Source of the DNA: Bactericera cockerelli
Taxonomy: Eukaryota > Arthropoda > Insecta > Hemiptera > Triozidae
Assembly: GCA_024516035.1 (NCBI GenBank)
Contig: CM044957.1
Location: 48,025,001-48,089,000 of the forward strand
Direction of reading: 5' to 3'
DNA: 64,000 nt
Under the pieces are notes generated by a model that did not search any database, was not told where the DNA came from, and saw only the letters and a program-made list of their open reading frames with translations. The position numbers and the translations under genes were made by a program. This document shows, piece by piece, positions 31,101-62,954 of the stretch; position 1 is the first letter of the stretch, and the number at the start of each line of letters is the position of its first letter.

Positions 31101-34100
31101 GTAATAAGTTCCGAGAAATCATGTGCCAGGAACAGAGATATACATCCATCGATCTATAGAAACAAATATGAATTTAAATACTATAATAGACACATACAGG
31201 AGAACCAAAGGCACGAGCATACCTATTCCAAAAAATGTCACTTGTAATCCAGAGAGGTAATTGCTCAAGTATTCTGAGTACTTTGCCCTCTCGATTGCAA
31301 ATGGCAGAGATATACTATCTGTAATAAATAAATAACAATATATGTTCATCTAATAAAATTTAGGCTCTGGGGACAGTAAAACATGTTAAAAAATAAAATA
31401 AAAAATAGACACATTGCCATATCTGGTCATTAAGAAACACACAGAACCCATATCTTCACAGCAACATTAAAACCAACCAGTCAGTAATCGTGATCAAGCC
31501 TACGAGTTAGGCGAAACTTAAGTCGGTGAGTGAAAAATTTAAAGAATCCTAGTTTTATATAAAACTAGCCGTTTGCCCGTGCTTTGCAACGGGACTAAAT
31601 TTCTAATTTACTAAGGCATGGCCATACTGCTGGACAGCAATGCCTTTTTGAACTTTTTATAATTTTTCTGGACAAAGCGATAATGATTTTGGGGGGGGGG
31701 TCAATTCTGAGACATTTTTCGCTATCTCTTACCGTTTTGGCTAAACAACTCCGGACAAACAAACAAACATAAGTAGGTAGGTAGTCCTTTTTTCTGTTTT
31801 ATTATTAAACATGTTGGATCAAGTTTTATTTACAATAAAGTAGGTACATAGAATATTTACATAGAATTGAAAGAAAACAAAACTTGATCAAGGGCGGTGC
31901 TAATGCCAACGGCATTCTTTTCCTTTATTATTATTAAACATGTTGGATCAAGTTTTATTTACAATAATAAAACTTGTATACAATTTTATATATAGAGATT
32001 ACATATATCTAACCTGCATTTGGAGATGTGAGGCAGAATGCACTTGGCCTCCTTGGCGACGAATCCTTCGGCGAGCTTGAACTCGTCCTGGAAGCGCGCC
32101 GGGTCCACAGCCTCCAGAATCACGCTGAACTCGTCCGACCACTCCGGCGTGGGCATGCCGACCAACTCATGCAGCGCCTCCAGCACCGCCTTCCTCACGG
32201 TCAGGTTGTTCAAGTAGAGCGTCGCCACGAGTGACCTGAGTGTGAGCGGGTCCTGCGGGCAGGGATGTCGATATGATATCGATATGTTGAAATATCGATA
32301 TTTTGAAATATCGATATTTTGGATCCGATATTATCGATATTTGGTATCGATACTGAGGTTCCGATAATATCGGGGAAAAAAAAATATCGTTATCGAATAC
32401 CCACCCTTCCTCACGTTCAGGTTGTTCAAGTAGAGCGTCGCCACGAGTGACCTGAGTGTGAGCGGGTCCTGCGGGCAGGGATGTCGATATTTTGAAATAT
32501 CGATATTTTGGATCCGATATTATCGATATTTGGTATCGATATTATCGATATTTGGTATCGATACTGAGGTTCCGATAATATCGGGGAAAAAAAATATCGT
32601 TATCGAATACCCACACCAAATGGATAAAATTTGCTTGTTTTGTAAGTTAAAATCATTTAATACTATAAACCGACCTCAGTAGCTAACCGACCTCAGTAGC
32701 TTGATCGATAAGTCGGTGATCTTGTAACCTGGAGGTCGGTGGTTCAAGTCCCGGTTTCAGCGTAAATTTAGTAAAGCGAGTTTGAGTAGTTGTGATATCA
32801 CGAAAGTGATTAACACAAATATGATAACTACTGATGAGTTCCAATAAGAACAAAACACGTGTGTCTTAAGTTGCTTTGTATAGTTCGTATTGATTTTCTG
32901 AAATATTGTAAAGTATGATTTATAGGTAATTGCATTAACACAATGCACTTAAGACTAAGTCACTGCCTTAATAGAGGTAATAGCGTGACACCTACACCTA
33001 AACTAAACTTATATCCCCATCTGTTCTAATGAAATTATGAAATATGTAAATAAAAATATCGATGTTCGATATATCGGAATATCGATATTTTCGTTTCGAT
33101 AATTATCGGATATCGATACTTTGCTTCCGATAATATCGATATCAAAAATATCGATATGGTGATTCGATATTGGCATCCCTACCTGCGGGTGACAGAAGTG
33201 AAGCATGCCAGGCCAGGACCTCAGGAGAGACAGCAGGGCGACGTGGAACCAGGGACGTTCACTGCTGGACGTCAGACACGGGAGCTCTGTGAAGCTAGCC
33301 GCTATGAACTGCAGGTCCACACAGGCCTTGGCTCTGGTGTGCGGGAGGTTCAGCAGATGCAGCAGAGCCCCCAGTATGCTCTCAGACATGCGGCCTGGCC
33401 GCACCACTGCCAGGCTGTGCATGAGAGCCCGCACACCTCCACACTTGAGGAACACGTCCTGGTTGAGAATGCACAACTCTGTGATCACCGCGATGAAGGC
33501 ACACGCCATGCGGTCGTTACACTTGTCTTCATCCTCGTCTTCCCGGCGATCCTTGGACTGTTTGTCCTCCTCTATCTCAGCGGGGGTCTTGCTGGACAGA
33601 GCGACACATATCAAGGAGCGGGCAATGGCTACGGGGAACAGGTGAGGCGCTACGATGAGGATGGAGCGCGTCAGACGTAGAGCTTGCACTCGCTCACTGT
33701 CGTTGCGTACGAGAATCAGATCCAAACTCCTGAAATTTGCAACAAAGCACAATAGTAAGTTATTAAAAGGTGAAATAGTATAATCTTTTATGAATGTTTA
33801 CCTTATTTCAAAAAGAAAAAAATATCACAAAAATTGAAATTTTGTATGAAATACTTTCCTTATTATAGATAAGGGAAGTAAAAAAACTCAACCTAGGCTG
33901 CTGAATACTCTCAAAAAGAGAATGGCACCACCCTTGATCAACAAACTTCATTTTATGTTCTTGTATTTGTATTTAATTCATATTAAATATTTTCACGTAT
34001 TTAGTTTGATTGAATTTGTTTTTGTTTTAATAATAATAATAAAGTCAATCTCCCAAAAATCCTCTTGGTGACATAAAATGTGGTTATGACACTACGCTTG

Positions 34101-44600: not shown

Positions 44601-47600
44601 TTCCTGACTATCTATCTCAAATCAGGACATTAAAACCAAATAGAATCAATGTCCATATACCTAATCCTCTCACCACCGTGATGCGTATCTCACGGACACG
44701 GAATTATTAGTATATAATAATTTTAATAACTAAACATATTATTATTCAGGTTTTGTTTTAAGATGGGCGATTTGGGTTTCTGACATTTGTAAAATATTTT
44801 TTTTAGAATTGGTTATAAATAAAAATTGAAGTTTTTTTTCAAGTTATAATTGTTTATTATTATTATTTTTTTTTATTGTTTTATTTTAAAAAAATAAGTG
44901 TAAATAAATAAAAATACACAAATGAAAATCATTTCAGGCTACCACGATCCCACAAAGAGAGGAACCCCTCTGGAGCTGATTCTCTCTCTGGTGCGAGTTC
45001 CACTCCCGTTCAAGCACAAATCCACCCGGACCATCGCTCTGGCTGCAGGCCGGGCTCACACGACCGTTGTCACAGATCAGGAGGGCGTGTTCACATTCGG
45101 CAACAATGCGTACGGGCAATGTGGGCGGGGCATTGTGGAGGGGGAGGACTACCACAGGAAATGGTTCTGCCACAAGATAGAGGGCGTGGATGGCGAGGCA
45201 ATAGTAGATGCAGTGTGCGGACGAGATCATACGTGAGTAGAGAATGAGTGTCATTTTTTTTTTAAATGTAACATGATCTATAGTTTATTTAAAAGTATAT
45301 AAAACAATAAAACAATAATGAAATGGTATATCCATTTCATTATGATAGCTATGACTCATCACGACAAAATATGAGAACTAATCAGATTCCAGAATTTCTT
45401 ACAATGTTGCGGACCTAAAAATACCTATTTTCAGTACACTCTCTCACTCGTAACTAATAAAAGGAGCTCTACTATACAAAGGTCGGAAGGGTACGTTTGG
45501 TGCAGGTAATATTTAAAAGGTTTCAACCTATATTATTACCTGGCAGCCTCCGTGGCGTAATGGTTGTGACTACTGCCCGTAGTCCAGAGTTCCCGAGTTC
45601 AACTCCCGGCTGGGGCAGACTTTTCGAAAAAAATTCTGTTCCATCCAAACACGTGAGGCTGCCATTTCCGGCCCTACCCAGGCTGGGTGAGGTTAATGTG
45701 GGTAGCTGGTACGATTCCCAGCGAATGGAGGGTAAAACCCCCGTCCTAATCAAGGACGTTAAATCAAATAGAATCGTTGGCGTTAGGAAGGGCATCCAGC
45801 CATAAAAAAAGTGCTCCACCCTACCAACCTCAACCATGAGGTTGAACAATGCCGACCCCAAAAGCAACATAAGCTAATATGGGATAAAGGCAAGGGAGAT
45901 ATATAACCTATATTATTACCTAGATACTTGGTTATCGATCAGAAATATATGATTTTGAATGTTTGAATCTACATAATGTGTAGATACATATATTGTATCA
46001 ACCTTAAGGTTGAAAGAAAATGTACAAGGAAGTATTGTGCGATGCACCTTCCTGCACTTAAGATTCTTTACTTCTGTAGTCTTTGCAGTATTGGCAACCC
46101 TGCCTACGATTTTAATGAGTCATAGCTATCATATTGAAATGGATATAGTATATAGATTGTAGACTTCTACAAACTCAGCTGAGGGAAGAGCCAAAAGCAT
46201 ACTTGCTGCATTCCCCCTCTGCACCGCCAGGCTGAGACGCTGTTTAAAATGAGAGTGTCATTTTACTTTCCTTATTCTATTTTAAAGAAAGTAATGGAAT
46301 CACCTAATTTTTGAAAGTCAGTTTTCAGTACCAAAACACGTTTTAGGGTCCCTAGAGCCTAAGTATGTGTGTGTGCGTGCGTAAGTACACGTATCGCAGG
46401 GTAGCATGGCGTATGAACCTCCCCTCTCGCGCCGAATTAAGTTAAAAATGAGGGGGAAAATGCGGCGGCTTTTAGGTTTGTAGATCAAATATGAGGTTAT
46501 ACAATAATCTAATTTGGGAATTTCTCTGTCTCGAACAAGGGGTCAATAAGAACTAGACTCTTCAACTTTATTTTGAAATCATAACAATATTAAAACGATT
46601 AGGTATAGTATGATGCAATTTAAATGAGGTAGATAAACAAAAATTCAATGTAAAATATAAACATATTATTTTTAGGGGTTCCAGACTGTCATTGTGTTAG
46701 GTAACGTCTAACCTTTGGTAAATAATAACCTTTTATTTTTTTAAAAATAATTAAAAATGATTAAAAACTTAGATTATTATAATATTTACACTTTCTTATT
46801 TTATTTAGGTTAAAAAAATTTTAATTATAATTATTATAAATATTCACGTATAATTAAAAGCACTTTATTTCTTAGGGTTCAAAAATTATATTATTATATT
46901 AAAAATTATTAAAGAATTAGATTATTAGAATATAATTATAATATCCGTTGAAAATTAAAAAGCACGACATTTGAATAAATAATTAAATGAAAAATAATGA
47001 CAAAATCGTCAGTATGATGATAGTATTATTATGATGGTTATAAGAGTTGATGAAGAACTGGTTCTCTAAAACACCGAAGTACTTCTTAGCACACTATTCC
47101 TATTTTAAACTCGAGCCGCATTTCATAAAATCGTTTACTGCGCATCTCGAGTTCATACGCCATCCTACAATGCGATACCTGTACGTGCGAACAAGATATC
47201 TCAAAAACGGTCAAAGCTAGAAACTTGAAATTTGGTATGTAGACCTCATTTATGGAGATGACGCAACACAAAACTTATCAACGAAGTCGCCGCCAAACGA
47301 TAAACGATAAATTTATGAGAACAACTTTTTCTTGCAATGAAAAATAATAGCGGTTTATTTTGATTTTTTTTTCTTCTTCTTAACCCAACCCCAATTTAAG
47401 GTATTTTAAGGGGGACCCGCTTGGACTAACGTTTTTACTATTAAGTCTAAATTGGGGTTGTGACTTATCAAATCCAATGATTTCGAGGTGCTGATTACGA
47501 ATTTGACATGGATTTTTAACCAACTGTTACCATTGAGTCACCAGTGTTGGACTTTGGCTTAATTTTTAACTAAAATAATAGAAAGCCATTTTTCCTTGAC

Positions 47601-50600
47601 TCCAGGATGTTCCTCACCGAGACGGGCAGAGTTTTCTCCTGTGGCAGGGGTGCGGACGGCCAAACCGGATTAGGACACTTCGACAATCAGGACACGCCCA
47701 GTTTAGTTCGTGGCGACATTGAAGGAGAGAAAATTGTCAAAATTTCCTGCACTGTGGACAGCGTTCTAGCAATTAATGGTAAGATATTTATATTATCTAT
47801 GTCTCACTTACTTACTTGTCTTTATGCCATATTAGCTAATATTTCTATTGGGTTCAGCATTTTTCCACCTCATGTTTGAGGTTGGTATAAGTATAAGTAG
47901 TGCTTTATTTAGACTGTCAGCGCAAGACAGGTAGTCCCATTATGCCAACAGTTTAACAAAGCACCTCCTTATTTATTTGAGTATAGATATAATGTAGGGT
48001 TGGTAGGGTGGAGATTTTTTTTTTTTACGGCTACATACCCTTCCTAACACCCACGATACCATCTAGTTTTAACATACTGATCAGGACGGGGGTGTTAGTT
48101 TTATTTACTTAGATAGGAACAACTTTCTCTCGAGTTGAAGAATTCATATGGTGATCAACGTTCCAAAAGCTTCTTAATCCAAAAAATATCAATCGCCATT
48201 CAACGAGGAAATGCTGTGAGCATTATGGGCACTATTGCTGATGGCTTGCGTTTCGAAGAGCTGTTTTATATTTAAATACATTATAACTATATTTGGGTTT
48301 TTTTTCACGTGATATTCATTCTCTTCCAATCTTTCTTTGTATTTCGATTCTCAACAACTCTTATTTCCCCTCCCCCTCCTAGATAAAGGCGAAGTGTTTG
48401 GCTGGGGCAATTCCGAATGCGGTCAAATATCGGAGACAGAAATGCAAATCAACGAGCCCCGCTTCATACCCCACTGCAAGGGTTTGTCTCGTATAGTAGA
48501 TGTGGCATCCGGGTCCACGTCCTGTGCCATAGTGAATGGTATGTTTTTTTTTTTTTTTTTTTTTTTTTTAATTGGGGTTTAACGTCGCTTTCAACTGCCA
48601 TGGTCATATCACGACGGGGGTTTTACCCTCCATTCGCAGGAAACTCACAAACCTGCTACTCACATTGACCTCACCCAGCCTGAGTGGGGCCGGGAAAAGC
48701 CAGCGTCACGAGAATTAGAATTTGAATGGTCACCCATCCAAGTCTTAACCTCGCTGGATGTCGCTTAACTTCGGTGTTCTGAAGGGAACCGGTGTATTCA
48801 ACATGCCATCGACGCTGGCTATGGTATGTTTTATTTTATTTTATTTATTTAAAATTATGAATGATCTATGGGGAAAATAAAAAGGTAAGTAGAAATGAAA
48901 GGGAAAGTAAATAAGTTTATAAAAATAAATAAATAAATGTGTTTCTTTGTGTTATTATATCACAATTTAAAAAAATATTTTGTAGCCATGAAACAGCAGC
49001 TACTGTAGACGGGTGTGATCTGTGTTGTAGCTCGCCCATCCTGTAGTATGCCTCCCCTCTATTGACATGAAATTACACTTTCCATTGAAGTGCTGGGTCA
49101 ACACGAGCGCACCGGAAGGTATTCCTTACAAACAACTGTAAACAAAATTTGAGTACATTTTTGTTGTCAGCTTTTGAATTCGAACCTTTCGCAATCTTCC
49201 GCATGGCATGCAAGGCACTGATACCTATATCACAGTGGTGAGATGATTATATCAAAGCCCAGATCCAATGTCTAAGCTCCTTTCTTGTCCATAGATCCAA
49301 TGTCTATAGGCTCCGTTCATACAAGCGATCACCTTACCTCTGAGCTAATAAATTTACATACTTTTTTTAATTGAATAATAGGTATACCTAGTTATAGTTG
49401 AATTGTTTTTCTTTATACAATAGTATTTTTTTTAATAACTTTATTTATATATATTCCAGATGAAGGTCAAGTATACTCTTGGGGATACGGAATATTGGGC
49501 CGAGGGCCGAAAGTGTTGCGGTCCCTGAAGCCTGGGCCCATACCAAGCACCCTGTTCGGGCAGGATCAGTTCAATCCGGAATATCGGGTTGTGCGCCTCA
49601 CTGCAGGTAAGTTTCTAGCAGAGAAACAATTGTTTGACTTGTAACCTGGAGGTCAGTGGTTCGAGTCCCAGTTCCAGCGTTGATTTAGTAAAGCGAGTTT
49701 GACTAAGGAGTTGTGATGTCACGAAAGGGATTAACACAATTACGATAGCTTTTTGTACCTTCGATAAATTTGTAACATCAAATATCAGAAGTATTGTGCT
49801 CGTTTTTGTAAAATAAAATAATTTATTTGCTCCGATTTCAATTTTTTTTTTTTTTTTTCATACGTTTCTTTACGTTTCATAACCTCCTGAGCAAATTTGT
49901 TGCGGTCTGTCGGTCCGTCTGTCGGTATCTCTTTAACTTTTGAAACTTGCAGGAGTCTCGACGTTTGCCGCAGTCACCAACATGGGTCAGCTGTACATGT
50001 GGGGGAGGAACAGCTACGGGCAGCTGGGACAGGGCACTCTCACTGACCAACACTTTCCTCTCAAGGTAAGCTTCATTTCACAAGTCATATTTACACTTCA
50101 TAATAATAATGATCTTTATTTTTTATCTTTCGTATATACATTTTTTTTGTTCCCATGAAGTACTAGTGTACTTTTCGGGAACTTTATCTCAGCAATTTTC
50201 AATCTTCATCTTCTTTCTTCTTTGTTTCTTTTTTCTTTCTTCTATTTTTTTAAATATTTTTTTTTTAAGCAGTTTATTTTAAGATGTTATATATATATCT
50301 GTTTTTTATTTATAAATCATTATTTTCCAAGAAATATTCTCGAATATCTTTTTTCATTTTTCTTTCATTATTTAAATGTTTTAAGGTTGGTGGTAATTGA
50401 TTTAATAGATGTGGTATTTGGTAATTAAATGTACTTTTCCCATAGTTATTTCTAAATGCTGGTATTGTATATTGAATATTACGAATGTGATAAGGTGTTT
50501 CGTGAATATTTCTGTATGATTCATCATAGTAATTTTTAGATATCATGACATATTTATAAAGGTTTGGAAAATTAAGTATTTTATAATATTTCATTTTATC

Positions 50601-53600
50601 ATTTCTTTGCAGTTTTGATGTGAAAGGATAAAGTGTAGATTTAATGATTTTTTTGTGAGTTGTTTGAATTGATTTAATATTTTCTTGGGATGTATAACCA
50701 TAATTTTCAATGCCATATCTCAAGACAGATTCGCATAAACTTTTATATAGTATTACTTTGATAGGTATTGGAATTATTTTTTCTATATAGTGCATTTGGT
50801 AGGCTATGCTGTTTAATTTCTTTTTGATGTAATGAATATGCTCATTCCATTTCATATTTTTATGTAAAATTATACCAAGATATTTTGTTGTATTTTCTTG
50901 TTTTACAATGGTGCATGTACAATTGTTATCTATAAAATTGTCATCTATACATTGATTATTATGTATTTTAATAGTATTTGTAGACTGTATATTATATCTT
51001 TTCATCATGTAATTTTCAAATAGAATTGATACAGTTTTTTCTTTGTTAATAAAAATATCTTTCTTATTAAGCCATATCATTATTTTATTTAAATCTCCTT
51101 GTATTTTTTCATATGCTTCGTTGATATTTTCTGTTATTGTATATGTATATTAAAATATCGTCTGCATATTGTAAGATTTTAGACTGTATATTGATTTTAT
51201 TTATATCATTGATGTAAAGATTAAAAAGAGTTGGTGATAATACTCCACCTTGTATTATACCACAACTTATATTTTCTTCAGTGCTGTAAGTTTTACCTAT
51301 TTTAACCAATTGTTTCCTATTTTCAAAGAAATTTCTCAATAATGCGTTTGTATTGTCATCTATTCCTATATTATTAAGTATTTCAAGCATTTTCATATGG
51401 TTTATTGTATCGAACGCTTTCTTTAAGTCTATAGATAGGGTTAAACAGTATTTCCCATTACTTAATGCATGATTTATTTCATCTGAATATTTGTTTAATA
51501 AAGCTGTTGTACTTTTACGTTCTCGAAATCCATATTGATTTTCACTGATCAAGTTATTCTTTTCTATATATTTTGATATTTCGTTATGCATATGTTTTTC
51601 AAGAATTTTTTCGATTATAGATAGAACAGCTATTGGTCTATAATTTGCAAATTCATTTTTCTTTCCTTTCTTATAAATCGGAGTGATGGTTGAAATTTTC
51701 ATAATGTTTGGTATGCTTTTTTCTTCTATTATTTTATTTATGATGTATAATATTATATTCTTTAGTGATAAATAGTTTTCCTTTATATCTTCAGGTCTGA
51801 TTTTATCAAAGCCTGGTCCTTTATTAGGGTCTATGTTTTTAATAATTTTATCTAGTTCATTTATTTCAATATTTTTTAATTTAAAAGGTTCTCTTTCATT
51901 TAAGTTTTCATTATTATTATAATAGGTCAAGTCAGTTCTCATTAATTCTTTCTTATTTTTCAATTCAATAATATCATTTTTAAATCTCTTGTTGAATTCA
52001 TTTGATATATGGTTCAAATCTTGTGTCTGTGCTTTGAAGTTTTTTATTATTGTTGATTCTGTATTTCTATCAATTTTATTCCTTAATTTGTCTATTATTT
52101 TCCAAGTATTTTTAATATTGCCATGACATGCATTAAATTTATTAGTTATTTCTTTTCTTTTTGCTTGTGTTATTTTATTAACAATCTTGTTTTTGATTTG
52201 TTTATATTCAATCATTAATTCATTATTACTCGTGTCTCTTTTTAGTAATTTCCATTTATCATTTTTTAATTTTATCATATCTCTGATTTCTTTTGTAATC
52301 CAAGTATTACCAATGTATTTCTTTTTCAATTTAATTACTTTATTTGCTTTTTTATACATGTTTTGAAATATATTGATAAATTTGTTGTAGATATTTTCTA
52401 TATTCTCTTGGTTTTCAATTAAATTATCCCAATCATATTCTGATATAAATTTATTAATTTTTTCTTTGTCTATAATGTTTATTTCAATTTCTTTATTTCT
52501 ATCATTTTCGAAATTACTCTCTATTTTTGTAAATATGAAATAATGATCAGCGATTTTTTCAAAAATAATGCTAGATTGGAATTTGTTTTTAGATCTTATG
52601 TTGATGTGATCAATAGGGTGGAGCGATGTTTCTACTTTTTAATGGAATAGTGAAAAAAAGTTGTCTATTGGCGAGAAACTTCCAAATCTGTTATTAATTT
52701 TTTTCTAAAAAATCGGGAAGATGCGCCCCGAGCCCCGCCCACTTTTGCGAAAATGTCATTTATAGACACTTTTCACATGAATTTTCTAATTTCTTTAGTA
52801 ATACTTTTTGAAATGGAATAGTTGTAAATGTTTACTTAATAGAATGATCCATCATTATAAAAATAAAAAATAGTCAACTTTAAATGGTAAGTTTCGCCCC
52901 AAATTTGTCCAAATCCAACAAAATTTTCTAAAATCAGCAAAAAAGACACATATCTGCCGAATTTTCTAATTTTTCTGGGACATTTTTCCGGAACAGAATA
53001 GTGTTTAAATACAAAAACATACTATCCTCGTTTACTTAGATTAAAAAGTTTTATAAAATTTACACGTTAAGTACCGCCCCGAGCTGCACCAAGGCCGCCC
53101 TATATTCTAGTAATAAATAGCTCTCATGTACTGTGGTACACTCAAGTATACTATCCCCTGTTTCTTATGATGACTCATCATAGAAATAGAATCCTTTACA
53201 AACATGATGATTCATCTCCATCAATGCCACAAAAAGGTCTTAAATATTAGAAACAATGAAAACAAGATTTTGGTAGAAATCCGTGGGTTTTATGTCTACC
53301 ACAACTCAGTTGACAGAAAGCAGCGAGTGTTATCTGATAAACGATTTGTGCGATTTTTTTCGCTCTCGAAAAAATTAATATCAGTGTATTAAGATTCGAA
53401 AATGTTATCACGTTTAACAAGAAACAGTTCGTAGTACATTGACATTGACTACATTCAAATTAAAGGTGTATGGTCCAATGTGGTTTTCAATTAAAAATAG
53501 ATCATCTTGTTTCGATGGACCCAAACATTTGCTTGATCTTATTCAACGAAGAAAGTATCTTGGTGAAAGTGTAAAGAAAATAGTAGATCCTGTTATTCAG

Positions 53601-56600
53601 AGAAACGCCTTCTACGCGCATCCTGAAAACTTGCTGTTGATTATGCTGGCAGATAACAGCAAAGTTCAAAGGGAAATTGCATACAGAGTAATTAAAAATC
53701 ACGTGAAGAAAATAGGTTCCCTGATGTTAGAAAAGTCACTGTTCCTGAAAAGTCACTGTAGCAACATCCTACAGCAGTTTAATACAGGGTGGGGCAAAAG
53801 TCTGGAAACCCCTGAATAACTTTCGAATGGCTTCTTCGGTAAAATTAAATTTTTGTACGGTAAACCGGACTAATAAGACCTTCTCTAAGAGTGGGGTCGA
53901 TTTTTGTTACCGGCCCCCATGTCGGGGCCAGGGGGGCCAACTTCATTTTTTTAAATACGAACCCCCACCTTGCGATACATTTTTAAAAAGGTCTTTAAAT
54001 AAGAAATACATTGGTGCAAATTTTATTTTTTTAATATTAACTGTTTGCAAATGGCGTCTAACTGTGTGAAGCCAGTAAAGTCTGGAAACCCCTGAATATC
54101 TTTCGAAAAGGCTTTCTCAGTAAATTTAAAATTGTGTACGGTAATCCTTGGTAATTAGACCTTATTTTAGAATGGGAACGATTTTTTTTACCGGCCCCCA
54201 TGTCGGGCCCAGGGAGGCCAACTTCATTTTTTTAATACGAAACCCCACCTTGCGATACATTTTTGGAAAGGTCTAATTACCCCGACTTATTGTGCATAAC
54301 TTTAAATTTACTGAGAAAGCCCTTTCAAAAGATATTCAGGGGTTTCCAGACTTTACTGCATACACAAAGTTGGACGCCATTTGCAATCAGTTAATATTAA
54401 AAAAATAAAATTTGCACTATTGTATTTCTTATTTAAAGACCTTTCCAAAAGTGTATCGCAAGGTGGGGGTTCGTATTTAAAAAAATGAAGTTGGCCCCCC
54501 TGACCCCGACATGGGGGCCGGTAAGAAAAATCGACCCCACTCTAAAAGAAGGTCTTATTAGCCCGGTTTACCTTACAAAATTTCAATTTTACCGAAGAAG
54601 CCATTCGAAAGTTATTCAGGGGTTTCCAGACTTTTGCCCCACCCTGTATAGTGGCACGAAGTTCCTGTGACTGAGCCCCCTTTAATAAGAGACATCAGTA
54701 TCGAAGATCTGGCCAACATTGTTGAAAACAACAACATCAAAAACTTTATTCCAGATGTGCCCTGCCACACACAGTGCGTCGCAAGGTACATCAAACTTGT
54801 GACAAATGCATCAAGCACTGTGATTGGTTATGGAGCCAGAGATGGTTTGATTAATCAAATTGGATCCAGAAGAATGATTCCAGTGTTTCGTACAAAAAAG
54901 GACTTTGCCTGAATAATAAATAAAATTAGCAAATGTTTAGTTAGAAATGTCCGAATCGGTTTTGAAAAATTGAAGTTTTTTTTTTAAAAAAGAAAGGTTC
55001 TTTCCAATGTCAATGCGTAATTTGTAATCTTTCAAATTTACTTTGTATAACTTTATACCTCCTACCTTTATTAACTATTTATATTTCGTTTTAATTATAC
55101 ATAATACGAAGAAAAAGTTCCGTTCATCAATATATTGTTCTTATTCATTTTAATTACTTGGGTGTTTTACCCATGTAGCATATAAAAATATACTAATGAA
55201 TTCACCAACTTGGGGCGACACTAAGAATGTGATATATGAGTCAATTTTTGTTACAAGTGTACGAAAAGAGTATAAAGTAGTACTTCAGTAATATTGTGTC
55301 CTGTAAAAGTACCCTGGAAAAATTAAAAAAAATCTGTGTGTACCACAGTACATTAGCCCATCCTCATTAGAGAGCCTAGAGAGAGCTATTTATTACTAGA
55401 ATATTAGGCGGCCTTGGTGCAGCTCGGGGCGGTACTTAACGTGTAAATTTTATAAAACTTTTTAATCTAAGTAAACGAGGATAATAATAATATAATAATA
55501 ACTCTTTATTGACAAGAATAATATTGACAAAGGGCGTGATTATTGCCTGAGGCAATCTCTGCCATCAAACCCATATGTTTTTGTATTTAAACACTATTCT
55601 GTTCCGGAAAAATGTCCCAGAAAAATTAGAAAATTCGGCAGATATGTGTCTTTTTTGCTGATTTTAGAAAATTTTGTTGGATTTGGACAAATTTGGGGCG
55701 AAACTTACCATTTAAAGTTGACTATTTTTTATTTTTATAATGATGGATCATTCTATTAAGTAAACATTTACAACTATTCCATTTCAAAAAGTATTACTAA
55801 AGAAATTAGAAAATTCATGTGAAAAGTGTCTATAAATGACATTTTCGCAAAAGTGGGCGGGGCTCGGGGCGCATCTTCCCGATTTTTTAGAAAAAAATTA
55901 ATAACAGATTTGGAAGTTTCTCGCCAATAGACAACTTTTTTTCACTATTCCATTAAAAAATAAAAATAAAAGTGCGATTTCGCTCCACCCTAGTGATCAA
56001 TGCATGATTTTTTTAACACGTTATTTAATAGTTCTTCTCTTGTTGGTTTTGTTATTGTATTTAGTATACCATTACTAGTTAGTAGTTCTAAATATGTATT
56101 CACCTCATTATTGTCAGCAAGAGTATTAATATTGATGTCACCTATTATTATTAAATCTTTGTTTCTTAGGTCTTTATTTTTAATCCATTTTTTAAGTTCG
56201 TCTAAAAATTTCTTTGTATTTAAATTCGGTGGTCTGTATATAGCATTTAATATTATGTTCTTACTGTTTATTTCAATCTCAACATTTTCTGCAAATTCAA
56301 ATTTTATTGTTTGTATTTTTGTTATTTTTATGTTTTCTTTGGTGTATATTACTATTCCTCCTCCTTTCTTTTTTTCTCTGCAAAAGTATTCCATATTATA
56401 TCCAATTAGTTCAAAATATTTTATTTCATCTTCCTTGCAATTGGTTTCTGTTAAAATTATTATATCAATTTTTTTAAATATATTTTCCAAATATGTTTGT
56501 AAATTTAAAAAGGTATTTCTAGATAAACTTCTAATATTAATGTGTATTATCGTTAGTTCATTTTTATTGATATATTTTAGTTCTGAATGATTAAAATCTT

Positions 56601-58469
56601 TAAAATTATCAAAAACTTTTGTTTCATTATTAATATCTAAGATATCAAGATCTGTGAAATTCATTATTTAGTTGGTTATTTAAAATAAGATTAAAATGTT
56701 ATGAATATGATTGATGGTTTGAGGTTTACACTATTTTTTGTAAATCATCAAATGTATTGATGTTGATGATATTACTTGTTTCAGTTTTTCGTACAAATAT
56801 TTTACCATTTCTTGACCATATAAACTTGTATTCCTTGGATTTCTTCAGCTGGCGGGCTTCATACATTAATTGTTTCTTCGTTTTTGATAGATGTTCATTG
56901 ATGTAAATGGTTTTATTTGAACAGTTCATCCCAAGGTCATTTGTATTTAGATTACTTCCTCTAGATTTGGCTATTATATCTTCTTTCATTTGTCTGGTGA
57001 GAAATTGGACAATGATTGGCTCTGGATTCTTAGTAGATCTCGTTGGAACGCGATGAATTGCATCGATATCTTCTTTCTTTATATTAACATCAATTTTTTT
57101 ACTCAATTCTTGTATCATTTCTCTTAGATTTTCATCTTTCTGTACGGGAATTCCATCTACTTGTATATTTTTATTTCTTGAGTATTGTTCTATATCATCA
57201 ATTGAATTTTCCAAATGCTTAATCTTCAATTTTAAATTCTCATTTTCAGCTTCCAGTATATTTTGTTTCTCATTTATCTTCTTTATATCACATTCCATAT
57301 CATTTAACTTTTCTAATACGTCATCCAATTTGTTACTATTGAAGTTCATGCTTTTTCCAAATTCTTTCAATTCTTTCTTGATCTCTTTCTTGAAATCCGT
57401 GAACAAAGCCTTCATGACTTGATTCATGTCCTCCTCTTCTTCTCTTTCAGATTCAGAGTCTGAAAGGATAATTTTCTTTGATTTCGATCTAGTTACTTTT
57501 GCGTCTTCCTTCTTCGTACTTGCAGTCTTCTTGTTTGTCATAATGAAGTTTAAATAAAGCACAAATACAATAGGCAGTATCTTTTGGAAGAAAGTAGATA
57601 TCTTTACCATATACTCTTTATTTTAAACGGAAATATTTCTAATATTTCATGATACGCGAAACACTCTAGATAGACTTTATGTGCGCGTACACAGTAGGTG
57701 TCTCAAAAAATATATATATTTTCTCCTTCATTTCACAAGTCATATTTACACTTTATGATACACTAAACTCTCTTTAGCCAGCGTCGATGGCATGTTGAAT
57801 ACACCGGTTCCCTTCAGAACACCGAAGTTAAGCGACATCCAGCGAGGTTAAGACTTGGATGGGTGACCATTCAAATTCTAATTCTCGTGACGCTGGCTTT
57901 TCCCGGCCCCACTCAGGCTGGGTGAGGTCAATGTGAGTAGCAGGTTTGTGAGTTTCCTGCGAATGGAGGGTAAAACCCCCGTCGTGATATGACCATGGCA
58001 GTTGAAAGCGACGTTAAACCCCACTTAAAAAAAAAAAAAACTCTCTTAAACTTTTTTTTTTTTGGGTTTAACGTCGCTTACAACTGCATGGTCATATCAC
58101 GACGGGGTTGTTACCCTCCATTCGCAAAAAACCACAAACGTCCTACCCACATTATCTTCACCCAGCCTGGTTTGGATCGGAGTCCCAGCATCACGAAGTC
58201 TTCACCTTGCTAGATGTTGCTTAACTTAAAGGTAATCCCACGAGAACCGGTGCATTCAACGCGCCATCGACATTGGGCTTCTTAAAATTTAATTAAGTTT
58301 AATTTCTAGATTTTTTTAAACGAATATTTATTTAAAGAGAGGTCTGAGTCCTTGCTCTTACCTCTAGATTGGTTTTTTGTTGTTACAGGTAGCAGTAGGA
58401 GCAGATGTGCACAAAGTGTGCAGTGGAGTGGATCATACCTTGGTTCTGAGTAAACACTTTGTGAGCTGA
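41509..58469 (+). CDS. RCC1L: RCC1L (WBSCR16-like) mitochondrial RCC1-repeat protein, whole gene
   Basis: Nine coding exons (118, 173, 106, 295, 173, 156, 147, 113 and 81 nt) join in frame to 453 codons and a TGA, close to the 464 residues of human RCC1L. RCC1L is a seven-bladed propeller protein of the mitochondrial inner membrane, known to act in mitochondrial ribosome assembly and reported as an exchange factor for OPA1. The first 40 residues are rich in basic, Ser and aromatic residues with few acids, as in a mitochondrial presequence. Blade motifs are CGYGFTL, AAGRAHTTVVT, FGNNAYGQCGRG, CGRGADGQTGLGH, GWGNSECGQI, WGYGILGRGP, WGRNSYGQLGQG and CSGVDHTLVLSK. The order matches RCC1L and not RCC1 or RCBTB. 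Intron 8 is about 8.3 kb because of nested transposons. Confidence 0.96.
43239..43411 (+). CDS. RCC1L: RCC1L exon 2 (GC donor)
   Basis: 173 nt, phase 1 in, 0 out. It encodes LYIYGNAEHGALGYTTQVGN and TRLHFGHFHK, the first blade. The only frame-keeping donor is GCAAGT in the context AAG/GCAAGT, a non-canonical GC-AG intron. Confidence 0.93.
43815..44105 (-). mobile_element. tRNA-derived SINE, family G
   Basis: On the minus strand: AATAGCTCAGTGGTTAAGCT head with CCGGGTTCGAATCC, then a body with GAGCGCACCGGAAGG (plus strand). Other copies: 48985-49225 (-), 62100-62225 (-), body-only near 34575-34720 and 58610-58750. Confidence 0.83.
44191..44296 (+). CDS. RCC1L: RCC1L exon 3
   Basis: 106 nt, phase 0 in, 1 out; acceptor CTTTTCAG, donor GTAAGA. 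It encodes VYDIACGYGFTLIATKSKDT, then LKIFGCGLNSDSQI, as in A-C-G-Y-G-F-T-L of vertebrate RCC1L. Confidence 0.97.
44938..45232 (+). CDS. RCC1L: RCC1L exon 4
   Basis: 295 nt, phase 1 in, 2 out; acceptor ATTTCAG, donor GTGAGT. It encodes ALAAGRAHTTVVTDQEGVFT and FGNNAYGQCGRGIVEGEDYH; the N-x-Y-G-Q-C-G-R motif is diagnostic for RCC1L. Confidence 0.98.
45545..45895 (+). mobile_element. tRNA-derived SINE, family D
   Basis: Head GCCTCCGTGGCGTAATGGTT with GTAGTCCAGAG and a B-box-like GAGTTCAACTCCCGG, body CCCAGGCTGGGTGAGGTTAA. Other copies: 23150-23505 (-), 44403-44720 (+), 61138-61275 (-, partial). Its body shares CCCAGGCTGGGTGAGG with the 5S-derived SINE. Confidence 0.85.
47606..47778 (+). CDS. 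RCC1L: RCC1L exon 5
   Basis: 173 nt, phase 2 in, 1 out; acceptor CTCCAG, donor GTAAGA. It encodes ETGRVFSCGRGADGQTGLGH, equal to the V-Y-S-C-G-W-G-A-D-G-Q-T-G-L-G-H block of RCC1L. Confidence 0.98.
48383..48538 (+). CDS. RCC1L: RCC1L exon 6
   Basis: 156 nt, phase 1 in and out; acceptor CTCCTAG, donor GTATGT followed by a long T run. It encodes GEVFGWGNSECGQISETEMQ, then VDVASGSTSCAIVN. Confidence 0.96.
48571..48825 (-). mobile_element. 5S-rRNA-derived SINE
   Basis: Minus-strand copy directly after the T run that follows the RCC1L exon 6 donor; that T run is its A tail. The 5S part ends at GCCAGCGTCGATGGC (48812-48826). Confidence 0.85.
49460..49606 (+). CDS. RCC1L: RCC1L exon 7
   Basis: 147 nt, phase 1 in and out; acceptor ATTCCAG, donor GTAAGT. 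It encodes GQVYSWGYGILGRGPKVLRS and PSTLFGQDQFNPE, equal to W-G-Y-G-I-L-G-K-G-P and T-L-F-G-L-T-E-F-N-P-E. Confidence 0.97.
49953..50065 (+). CDS. RCC1L: RCC1L exon 8
   Basis: 113 nt, phase 1 in, 0 out; acceptor CTTGCAG, donor GTAAGC. It encodes FAAVTNMGQLYMWGRNSYGQ, then LGQGTLTDQHFPLK. The donor is only 6 bp from the target duplication of the LINE that fills the next intron. Confidence 0.97.
50310..52613 (-). CDS. LINE ORF2, reverse transcriptase part (one frameshift)
   Basis: Continues ORF2 beyond the nested transposon. RT blocks are present: ANYRPIAVLSIIEKILEKH, QYGFRERKSTTALL, LSIDLKKAFDTINH, GIIQGGVLSPTLFNLYIND and the catalytic QYADDILIY. About 10 codons after YADD a single-base frameshift in a TA-rich run ends the frame (stop at 51109). 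The remainder (thumb and C-terminal part, to 50310) continues in another frame. No RNase H motif seen. Confidence 0.9.
53439..54912 (+). pseudogene. Transposon-borne gene of an uncharacterised family, interrupted
   Basis: 5' part 53439-53784 encodes VYGPMWFSIKNRSSCFDGPK, a YLGESV segment, then VIQRNAFYAHPENLLLIMLA. 3' part about 54649-54912 encodes TEPPLIRDISIEDLANIVEN, DVPCHTQCVARYIKLVTNAS and DGLINQIGSRRMIPV, ending KKDFA and a stop. Between them sits the 862-bp fold-back element; the two frames are also out of register by one base, so the gene is dead here. From memory, the PCHTQ-x-V-x-R-x-x-K-L-V-T-x-A-S motif recurs in many unnamed arthropod proteins. I see no DDE triad and do not assign a function. 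A short upstream frame (53204-53392) may be an earlier part. Confidence 0.65.
53785..54646. mobile_element. Fold-back (palindromic) TA-type element, 862 bp
   Basis: TA at 53783-53784 and 54647-54648 is the target duplication, and both ends read CAGGGTGGGGCAAAAGTCTG. Almost the whole length is an inverted repeat of two roughly 420-bp arms, each also holding a second internal copy of the TCTGGAAACCCCTGAATA motif. It inserted into the gene of the host transposon. Ends and TA target fit the Tc1/mariner superfamily. Confidence 0.9.
55483..55580 (+). repeat. Short dispersed repeat I (AAAGGGCGGGGTTATTGCC family)
   Basis: About 100 bp with CTTTATTGACAAGAATAATA and GGGCGTGATTATTGCC, inserted in the right inverted repeat of the 3.4-kb transposon. 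Related pieces: 4728-4760, 9061-9095, 12360-12400, 14325-14365, 31795-31925, 62262-62310. Their shared core GCC-n-GGCAATCTCTTCC suggests a small stem. Confidence 0.7.
55993..56664 (-). CDS. LINE ORF2, apurinic endonuclease part
   Basis: Starts MNFTDLDILD at 56664. AP-endonuclease motifs are visible in order: IIHINIRSLSRN, DIIILTETNC, KGGGIVIYTKE, NAIYRPPN and LIIIGDININ. The frame runs into the nested transposon at its 8-bp target duplication and resumes at 52613 on the other side. Confidence 0.88.
56726..57541 (-). CDS. LINE ORF1 (coiled-coil, FP/RRM-like RNA-binding protein)
   Basis: 271 codons from the ATG at 57541; an upstream in-frame ATG at 57610 would add a hydrophobic leader and is less likely. 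It has a lysine-rich start, a serine/acidic stretch (ILSDSESEREEEED), a long coiled coil with LEAENENLKLKIKHLE, then RNKNIQVDGIPVQ, AIHRVPT and a C-terminal segment with IYINEHLSK and FIWSRNGKIFVRK. This order is known for ORF1 proteins of several insect LINE clades, whose C-terminal part resembles the baculovirus FP domain. It presumably binds the LINE RNA. Confidence 0.82.
   Translation of the reverse strand: MTNKKTASTKKEDAKVTRSKSKKIILSDSESEREEEEDMNQVMKALFTDFKKEIKKELKEFGKSMNFNSNKLDDVLEKLNDMECDIKKINEKQNILEAENENLKLKIKHLENSIDDIEQYSRNKNIQVDGIPVQKDENLREMIQELSKKIDVNIKKEDIDAIHRVPTRSTKNPEPIIVQFLTRQMKEDIIAKSRGSNLNTNDLGMNCSNKTIYINEHLSKTKKQLMYEARQLKKSKEYKFIWSRNGKIFVRKTETSNIININTFDDLQKIV
57776..58028 (+). 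mobile_element. 5S-rRNA-derived SINE (SINE3 type)
   Basis: The first 92 bp (GCCAGCGTCGATGGC, CACCGGTTCCC, ACCGAAGTTAAGCGAC, GGTTAAGACTTGGATGGGTG) follow animal 5S rRNA through the internal promoter. Then come a constant body with CCCAGGCTGGGTGAGG-like sequence and GTCGTGATATGACCATGGCA, and an A-rich tail. Other copies: 27366-27600 (+), 48571-48825 (-), 58055-58280 (-), 58750-58905 (-), 11370-11475 (+), 10035-10150 (-, body only). Confidence 0.88.
58055..58280 (-). mobile_element. 5S-rRNA-derived SINE, opposite to the copy at 57776
   Basis: Minus-strand copy facing the 57776 copy, tails together, giving a large inverted repeat in RCC1L intron 8, 110 bp before exon 9. Confidence 0.83.
58389..58469 (+). 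CDS. RCC1L: RCC1L exon 9 (stop codon)
   Basis: 81 nt including TGA at 58467-58469, phase 0 in, acceptor TTGTTACAG. It encodes VAVGADVHKVCSGVDHTLVL and SKHFVS, the closing blade (vertebrate V-A-C-G-V-D-H-M-V-T-L-A-K). No clear AATAAA follows within 150 bp. Confidence 0.96.
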   Translation, partial: VAVGADVHKVCSGVDHTLVLSKHFVS

Positions 58470-61578: not shown

Positions 61579-61728
61579 TTAGGCGGCTTTCTCCAACTTG
61601 ATGAGCTCAGCAATGCCGTCGTTCATCTCCTTGACGGCATCGAACTCGGTGAGACCCATTCTTCTCTTGTTGGAAATGTCGTAGACCCCGCCCACAGACT
61701 CGGTGTGTTCTCCCGCGGTACCTCGCAC
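61579..61728 (-). CDS. ArgK: Arginine kinase, last exon
   Basis: 150 nt, 49 codons and TAA (61581-61579); acceptor CTTCACAG, phase 0. It encodes [20 protein letters not shown] and [20 protein letters not shown], ending [14 protein letters not shown] contains the glutamate that in structurally known arginine kinases contacts the arginine substrate, and [13 protein letters not shown] is invariant in arthropod enzymes. The enzyme reversibly moves phosphate from ATP to arginine as an energy buffer. Confidence 0.97.
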
Positions 61729-62417
61729 CTGTGAAGTGGAACACGCATGTTTTACGAAATAGTATTACCAAAATGCGCGATGCAGTTCGTCTTTTGAAGA
61801 TTTCCCCCTCTCCTAAAAAAATAAACTTAACTAAAAAATAAACTGGAACCGCTTTCGCATTACTTCAGGGCACTTTACCTGTACATCCATGTCATTCCTC
61901 AGAGGGAAAAACACGGTCAGGTGTGCACAAAAACACACAAGAATCATAATATTTTTTTAAAGAAGTTAATGCAATCCAAGATATCATATTTGTGTTAATC
62001 ACTTTCGTGATATCACAACTACTCAAATTTACGCCGAACCCGGGACTTGAACCACCGACCTCCAGGTTAAAACACCGCCGCCTTATTGATCAATATATGA
62101 CCACACCGGAAGGTATCCCTTACAAACAACTGCAACCAAATTTAGATAACAATTTCTTGTCGGCTCAGGACCTTCCGAACGGCAAGCGAGCGCTTAACCA
62201 CTGAGCTAATCGCGCGCTCTTGAAAGGCTTTGCAACTTTTTGAAACAAAATGTTGCGCTGAGGTTGGGTGGAAGAGATTGCCAAAGGCAATAACCCCGCC
62301 CTTTAGTTAGGACATACATTATGTATATATTTTTTTTCTCTCTTTCTTCTTCTTTCTCTTGAATTGTATATTAATTTGTAAGTATCTGTGTTGTATATAT
62401 GTCCAATTAATAAAGTG

Positions 62418-62655
62418 TTAAACACGTTGATCGCCAACGCTATAGAGTTACATTTCCTCAGGGGCCCAAATGACACTCCAATGTCAAGTGAATTCACCTG
62501 ACGGGCCGTAAGAGATAATCATGTCAGGTGAATTCACCTGACTAGATAATCATGCCGTACGAGATAATCATGTCAGGTGAATATGCCTGACGGGGCCACC
62601 TGGGAAAAGTTAGTGTCAGGTGAATTCACCTGACGGGGCGATCAACGTGTTATAT
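62418..62655. mobile_element. TTAA-like MITE with repeated 20-bp palindrome, arginine kinase intron
   Basis: Inverted ends ACACGTTGATCGCC (left) and GGCGATCAACGTGT (right). Inside, GTCAGGTGAATTCACCTGAC, a perfect 20-bp palindrome, occurs twice intact (near 62522 and 62615) plus two degenerate copies (near 62481 and 62570). TTAA-like bases adjoin the ends but the duplication is not clean. It ends 13 bp from the arginine kinase donor. Confidence 0.75.
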
Positions 62656-62668
62656 AATAACGTCTCAC

Positions 62669-62866
62669 CTGGAGGTTGTATCTGCCAGCGATCTCCTCCA
62701 GCTTGGAGAGGTCAGCCGCCAGCTTGGGCAGTTTGATGTGGACGGAGGCCCGCACTGTGGTTCCCAGGTTGGTGGGACAGAAGGTCAGGAACCCTAGCCG
62801 GTCATCGTGCGAGAAGGGGATTCTCTTCTCGATGTCGTTGACGGCCGAAACCAACCGTCTGTAGAC
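62669..62866 (-). CDS. ArgK: Arginine kinase, penultimate exon
   Basis: 198 nt, 66 codons, phase 0 in and out; acceptor CCCCAG, donor GTGAGA. It encodes [40 protein letters not shown] and [20 protein letters not shown]. The cysteine in TFCPTNLGT is the conserved reactive cysteine and the arginine in TVRASVHI is a phosphate-binding residue. The 5' exons lie right of the window. Confidence 0.98.
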
Positions 62867-62954
62867 CTGGGGAATTGTGGATGAGAGAAAGTGGACTTTT
62901 AGTTAATTTTTTTTTTGAAAAATCGGAATAAATATATTTTTATATTACATATTA

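Follow-up and report, generated by a model that had tools for sequence, protein, structure and literature searches.

An introner-like family of hAT-type MITEs in an insect, and its likely role in the origin of a rictor intron

The rictor gene on the minus strand of the window studied here (the whole 64,000-bp stretch of DNA that was analysed, G000:C3:48025001-48089000, from a 565-Mb genome) contains an intron that is built from transposable sequence, and this raises the question of how the intron came to be there and whether it stands alone. It occupies 32253-33182 on the minus strand (930 bp, GTAGGG...CCCGCAG, its splicing predicted) and, confirmed base for base, is the sum of an insert of 922 bp and one copy of an 8-bp target site duplication, CCCGCAGG. 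The insert (32260-33181), a hAT-type MITE in which a SINE is nested and part of the sequence is tandemly duplicated, has the tips CAGGGATG / CATCCCTA and is bounded by the 8-bp duplications. Read on the coding strand, the locus runs ...CACCCGCAGG|TAGGGATG.....CATCCCTG|CCCGCAGG|ACC..., with the first copy of the duplication (33182-33189, minus strand) supplying the G of the GT donor and the second (32252-32259, minus strand) supplying the AG acceptor. The duplication can hardly abut both tips by chance, since 28 of the 33 independent copies of the element considered below have an exact one. The upstream exon (33183-33729, minus strand; start placed by eye at AATTTCAG|GAG) is an open frame with a RICTOR_N match, and the protein continues in the open frame of the downstream exon (32014-32252, minus strand; end placed by eye at TGCAG|GTTAGA). 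The earlier note had given the intron, the insert and the duplication with coordinates that prove exact when the sequence is read base for base. Its further claim, that the intron is exactly one transposon, stands in so far as the intron is an element plus its duplication, but the element is not a simple single one, given the nested SINE and the tandem duplication.

Removal of the intron leaves a single open frame (LRSWPGMLHFCHPQDPLTLRSLVATLY), which matches the PDB Rictor chains (E 1.7e-33, query 11-265 of 266) and Pfam RICTOR_N (E 6.6e-44, residues 12-261) across the junction. This continuous frame upholds the claim that splicing, as predicted, would restore the rictor coding sequence as it was before the insertion. 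The exon pieces of the gene hit RICTOR_N in order (profile 29-73, 80-309 and 317-371), and a piece near 21 kb has a RICTOR_M match below cut-off. Read forward, the three frames of the intron itself contain 8, 17 and 12 stops, so an unspliced rictor RNA would be truncated. One might suppose instead that the element invaded an existing rictor intron whose original ends were later lost, but the duplications directly abut the element and hold both splice sites, leaving zero bases of any other intron sequence, and 18 further spliceable copies of the element also have their predicted splice sites in duplication and tip. We consider such an invasion very improbable.

Later events are layered on this intron. 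A unit of 216 bp at 32189-32404, comprising 64 bp of the true rictor exon end and the target duplication together with the tip and ~140 bp of the element, recurs in tandem within the intron at 32405-32614, where the second unit brings with it a 64-bp exon copy (32405-32468), the target duplication for a third time (32468-32475) and a tip at 32476; one mismatch separates the two units within their first 80 bp. Since exon sequence is found in this tandem duplication, it could be argued that the intron arose by tandem duplication of an AGG-bearing piece of exon and that the element arrived later. However, the point where exon, target duplication and element tip meet already lies within the duplicated unit; the element therefore came first, the duplication postdates the insertion, and an origin by tandem duplication is scarcely credible here. 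Rictor is also a case of an intron that acquired exon sequence. The exon copy has an intact acceptor copy and an AAC|GTGAGG donor, from which we predict a possible in-frame cassette exon of 54 nt, or 18 codons, at 32415-32468 on the minus strand.

The nested SINE, of tRNA type, lies at about 32668-32829 on the plus strand (body 32685-32829, whose start is repeated over 17 bp at 32668-32684). It has nine other partial copies within the window, and in the genome search the copies of the element elsewhere continue without it (query 418|574). A B-box-like motif, seen by eye, suggests its tRNA origin, and ARAGORN found no tRNA genes over 31500-34000. Against Rfam the element gave below-gathering matches only, one of them hammerhead-like (HH9, E 0.0068). 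The stretch in question, CTGATGAGTTCCAATAAGAACAAAAC, lies in the element core at 32830-32866 and recurs at the corresponding position of the reference copy, L002. It has AAAAC in place of the GAAAC that we take to be needed in a hammerhead core, and rather than a real ribozyme it is probably a chance or decayed resemblance.

Is the rictor insert, then, one of a family? A DNA search with the rictor intron returned at least 119 matching pieces, from the best 40 of 3409 first-look candidate places, and a 15-base tip pattern was matched exactly 91 times against once for a reversed control, or 236 times against 87 when up to one mismatch was allowed. We examined 89 loci, which cover part of the 91 or 236 pattern matches: 39 came from the first search in addition to L001, 30 from the pattern search, and 20 were fetched by place. 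Two of these had no element, 58 had tips and 8-bp duplications with at most two mismatches, and the remaining 29 (of 87 element-bearing loci) had no duplication, some of them being second views or half elements. After near-identical flanks were collapsed, 33 independent copies remained, with rictor included as L070. L024 was missed in this set and its duplicate L034 counted, while L029, L030 and L035, with unclear duplications, and L026, with mutated tips and a clear duplication CCCGCAGG, lie outside it. Element length ranges from 297 to 1701 bp and is 514-586 bp in 17 of the 33 copies. With L026 included, 31 of 34 copies are 95.7-98.6% identical to their nearest other copy; for the copy in rictor the figure is 97.3%.

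Members of the hAT superfamily have short inverted tips that start YARNG, and the tips of this family, TAGGG and CAGGG, have that form. The target duplications likewise have the 8-bp length of hAT elements, being exact in 28 of the 33 accepted copies, with one mismatch in 3 and with two between the paired duplications of L016 and L094. Together, duplications and tips suggest that a hAT transposase would have been the mover of the family. Two long tip pairs, of 4502 bp on C1 and 4308 bp on C2, were weighed as an autonomous partner and set aside: by eye, no hAT transposase was seen among their ORFs, neither pair had matching duplications, and one of the two carries a retrotransposon reverse transcriptase ORF.

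A number of element sites occur in duplicate: L005/L011 (C2, 1.73 and 2.02 Mb), L012/L039 (C2, 16.83/16.43 Mb), L013/L020 (C2, 46.37/46.59 Mb), L027/L028 (C4, 19.53/18.87 Mb) and L014/L015 (C9, 31.03/31.25 Mb), the last with a third copy, L022, on C8. Paired sites share a contig, lie 0.2-0.7 Mb from each other and have flanks that are 95-99% identical, with L024/L034 at 91%. To judge from their sequences, these pairs look like uncollapsed haplotype copies or recent segmental duplications.

The central question is whether other copies could be removed as cleanly as the one in rictor. We called a copy spliceable when some cut in its duplication, on either strand, gives GT...AG and the exact pre-insertion sequence; the chance level is ~10% (654 of 6575 flank 8-mers), or 9.2% in the window. 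Nineteen of the 33 independent copies are spliceable without loss or gain (binomial 2e-11), and they are confined to GC-rich surroundings: 19 of 21 copies with a flank GC of at least 0.50 are spliceable, against 0 of 12 below (Fisher 2.6e-7), where GC, measured over 300 bp, is a stand-in for coding and the threshold was picked after the data were seen. The same contrast without rictor is 18 of 20 against 0 of 12 (Fisher 4e-7), and a threshold-free Mann-Whitney comparison of spliceability with flank GC gives 6.6e-6. These values supersede a first pass on the 40 top-scored copies (22 independent by hand count), in which the contrast was 11 of 12 against 2 of 10. The rictor mode of splicing, NNNNNAGG, with the tip giving the T of GT, accounts for 15 of the 19. 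Three others (L013, L014 and L079) have AG|GT within the duplication, and in L009 the duplication starts GGT and the acceptor A comes from the element; the modes of L013, L014 and L009, with cuts inside the duplication or at its start, are the weaker ones. The check that the earlier note had proposed, namely how often other copies of the element coincide with introns that have CAGG-type duplications, thus comes out in its favor as far as predicted introns are concerned. The note had also treated a T or C at the tip as a decisive base change, and this is not supported: both tips start with T in 16 of the 20 copies read, and the C tip in rictor is irrelevant to its donor because it sits at the acceptor end.

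Spliceability is lacking in two of the GC-rich copies, L086 and L005. The first is simply a miss; in L005 the duplication, GTGAGTTC, opens with a native-looking donor, GTGAGT, so that element may lie in an existing intron. L021, L030 and L032 resemble L005 in lying either right at a native-looking donor or no more than a few bases from one, with L030 a few bases past one, after an ORF that reads by eye like DNA ligase, and L032 at an apparent exon end. An insertion preference for exon-intron borders is possible.

If the spliceable copies are indeed introns, the sequence on either side of them should read as protein. ORFs were taken across the empty sites on the spliceable strand, with frames chosen by eye, and in 8 of the 19 spliceable copies a known protein is continuous across the site: rictor, GMC oxidoreductase, cyclin E (a cyclin E1 match of 1e-29 in which a gap of two residues falls on the junction), Nup155 (2e-17), Ig I-set, DUF4779, MADF and M1 aminopeptidase, where the Pfam match adjoins the junction and the PDB match spans it. 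Pfam matches at empty sites include RICTOR_N, GMC_oxred_N, Cyclin_N, I-set, DUF4779 and MADF. The other 11 copies are without a recognised protein; no match above cut-off was obtained with the ORFs of L025, L016, L088, L077, L082, L032, L094, L013, L014 and L069, nor with a wrong-frame ORF of L024, and L026, outside the 33, gave weak Ig matches below cut-off. As a control, the longest ORF on the opposite strand was taken at 17 loci, and none of the 17 reached a Pfam cut-off, in a comparison that is not quite like for like, control frames having been picked by length and test frames by eye. The opposite-strand ORF of L079 has a weak coiled-coil match (E 0.0096); L079 is probably a chance member of the spliceable set, because it is likely to be coded on that opposite strand.

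Elements in eight unrelated genes thus reach predicted splice boundaries while retaining nearest-copy identities of 95.7-98.0%, and the signs of transposition, 8-bp duplications and TAGGGATG/CATCCCTA-type tips, recur in 33 independent copies; these are two of the features by which introners are recognised. Judged by its sequences, this is an introner-like family in this insect, and rictor is one member of it.

A more mundane explanation is that the transposon simply prefers AGG-like or GC-rich targets, that the splice-ready look is a by-product, and that the copies disrupt genes, being recent, harmful or on a non-functional haplotype. It would fit with the AGG found at a duplication end in 15 of the 21 GC-rich copies, with the positions of L005, L030 and L032 at or beside native-looking donors, and with the duplicate site pairs, whose flanks are 91-99% alike and could be uncollapsed haplotypes. 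But AGG stands at neither end of the duplication in any of the 12 GC-poor copies, and so the element has no general preference for AGG targets. Such a preference would also predict AGG on both strands, whereas it is on the coding strand in all six copies with a homology-fixed strand and a non-palindromic NNNNNAGG duplication (rictor, L017, L018, L023, L034 and L081), an outcome with a chance of 1 in 64. Disruption of the genes is at odds with the frames that are open on both sides at homology-fixed sites. We regard target preference with gene disruption as an unlikely account of the family, and favor the formation of introns by insertion.

Intron formation does not appear to be the property of particular elements. 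The intron strand has the reference orientation of the element in 6 copies, the opposite orientation in 12 and both in 2 (L026 included), and both orientations work because the tips are inverted repeats. On a tree of 28 copies, in which just one inner branch out of 25 has good support, the intron label changes 9 times, against a mean of 9.0 for shuffled labels; a count as low was reached in 324 of 500 shuffles. Copies with and without the intron label intermingle on this tree, and therefore no special intron-making subfamily is seen.

The general pathway can now be proposed. Consider a non-autonomous hAT-type MITE, typically of 514-586 bp, with TAGGGATG/CATCCCTA tips and an 8-bp duplication, that would land at many places in the genome. 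Where it lands in an exon and the duplication, read in the coding direction, has the form NNNNNAGG, a GT donor (AG|GTAGGG) would form from the final G of the upstream copy and the T of the tip, and the pyrimidine-rich end of the element, together with the AG of the downstream copy, would create an acceptor (CATCCCTA-NNNNNAG|G). The spliceosome would then remove the element and one duplication, and the mRNA would be unchanged. Non-spliceable exonic insertions would be lost through selection, and it is for this reason, we infer, that almost every exonic copy still present is an intron. The intron in rictor would have arisen in this way, and the SINE and the 216-bp tandem duplication would have arrived afterwards, in either order. 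The claim of a transposon-made rictor intron is supported by the anatomy of the locus, the protein homology that spans the empty site and the pattern seen genome-wide, and we think it highly probable that MITE insertion with duplication-derived splice sites made this intron and others, through the splicing and the selective filter postulated here. The broader reading is that a young and ordinary hAT MITE family of this insect made about 18 new introns in 33 copies, eight of them in recognised genes, with the tip T and an AGG-ended duplication completing the splice sites and selection discarding the rest; this we consider likely, if less firmly so.

As the earlier note had proposed, the mechanism is the one described for introners, and on its sequence features the family is an introner-like one in an unexpected host, of an already known kind of system. 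The maize Ds intron credited to Giroux et al. 1994 is said to be a hAT element insertion that became an intron, likewise by a hAT insertion but reportedly as a single case, in contrast to the genome-wide family here. The available text of a survey of introners in 3,325 genomes (Gozashti et al. 2022, PMC9860276) places them, among animals and land plants, in two groups only, both animals, calls introner lineages aquatic except for the ascomycetes and one other, and gives median lengths of 30-654 nt for the families. Like the introners described in that text (PMC9860276), the present family consists of many near-identical elements that insert in exons, with a GC-rich genic bias, target duplications and inverted tips (found in some of the surveyed families), splice sites, predicted ones in this family, of which the duplication supplies one or both, and an mRNA length that would usually stay unchanged; unlike them, it has an insect host, an 8-bp duplication and copies that also lie outside coding-like sequence.

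Transposon-insertion introns are tabulated for Oryza, Drosophila, Oikopleura and Zea in the accessible part of a review that also cites maize Ds (PMC3443670); single insect cases therefore exist, and the Drosophila, rice, Oikopleura and maize cases resemble ours in that a transposon became an intron via duplicated splice-like target sites. The model in that part of the review needs AGGT in the duplication (PMC3443670), whereas AGG is enough in this family because the element tip supplies the T. Being short and non-autonomous, with inverted tips, the elements are also like insect hAT MITEs such as Mar in Drosophila, in whose title and opening of the abstract (PMC3517528) intron formation, the distinguishing trait of this family, does not figure. 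Among the introner papers listed, a set with few subscription papers and none of the later surveys, no insect introner family appears in the titles or the starts of the abstracts; in the portions of text at hand, the mention of introners in a Phlebotomus paper is a cited title, and a gammarid/rotifer paper terms one rotifer intron introner-like.

The origin of introns is a long-standing question, and clear, recent and repeated animal cases are scarce. If our reading is correct, introners would not depend on a special element or on life in water. In this context, an early-stage family with near-identical spliceable and non-spliceable copies could be used to test which insertions become introns, how efficiently they are spliced initially, and whether selection or target choice is responsible.

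Other features of the window can be noted briefly. Long AT-rich ORFs lie on the minus strand at 50310-52638 and 55990-57622, one of them with a YADDILIY reverse transcriptase motif, and the YADDILIY-bearing ORF is presumably a non-LTR-type retrotransposon. ORFs on the plus strand at 44904-49644 resemble RCC1-type repeats (GRGADGQTGLGHF, GWGNSECGQISE) by eye. An arginine kinase gene (61600-62902 and L041) has its C-terminal exons in the window and the remainder just past the right edge; when compared with PDB chains, one of its exons matches a taurocyamine kinase best and arginine kinases next, and the fuller protein reads as arthropod-like, probably insect or hemipteran.
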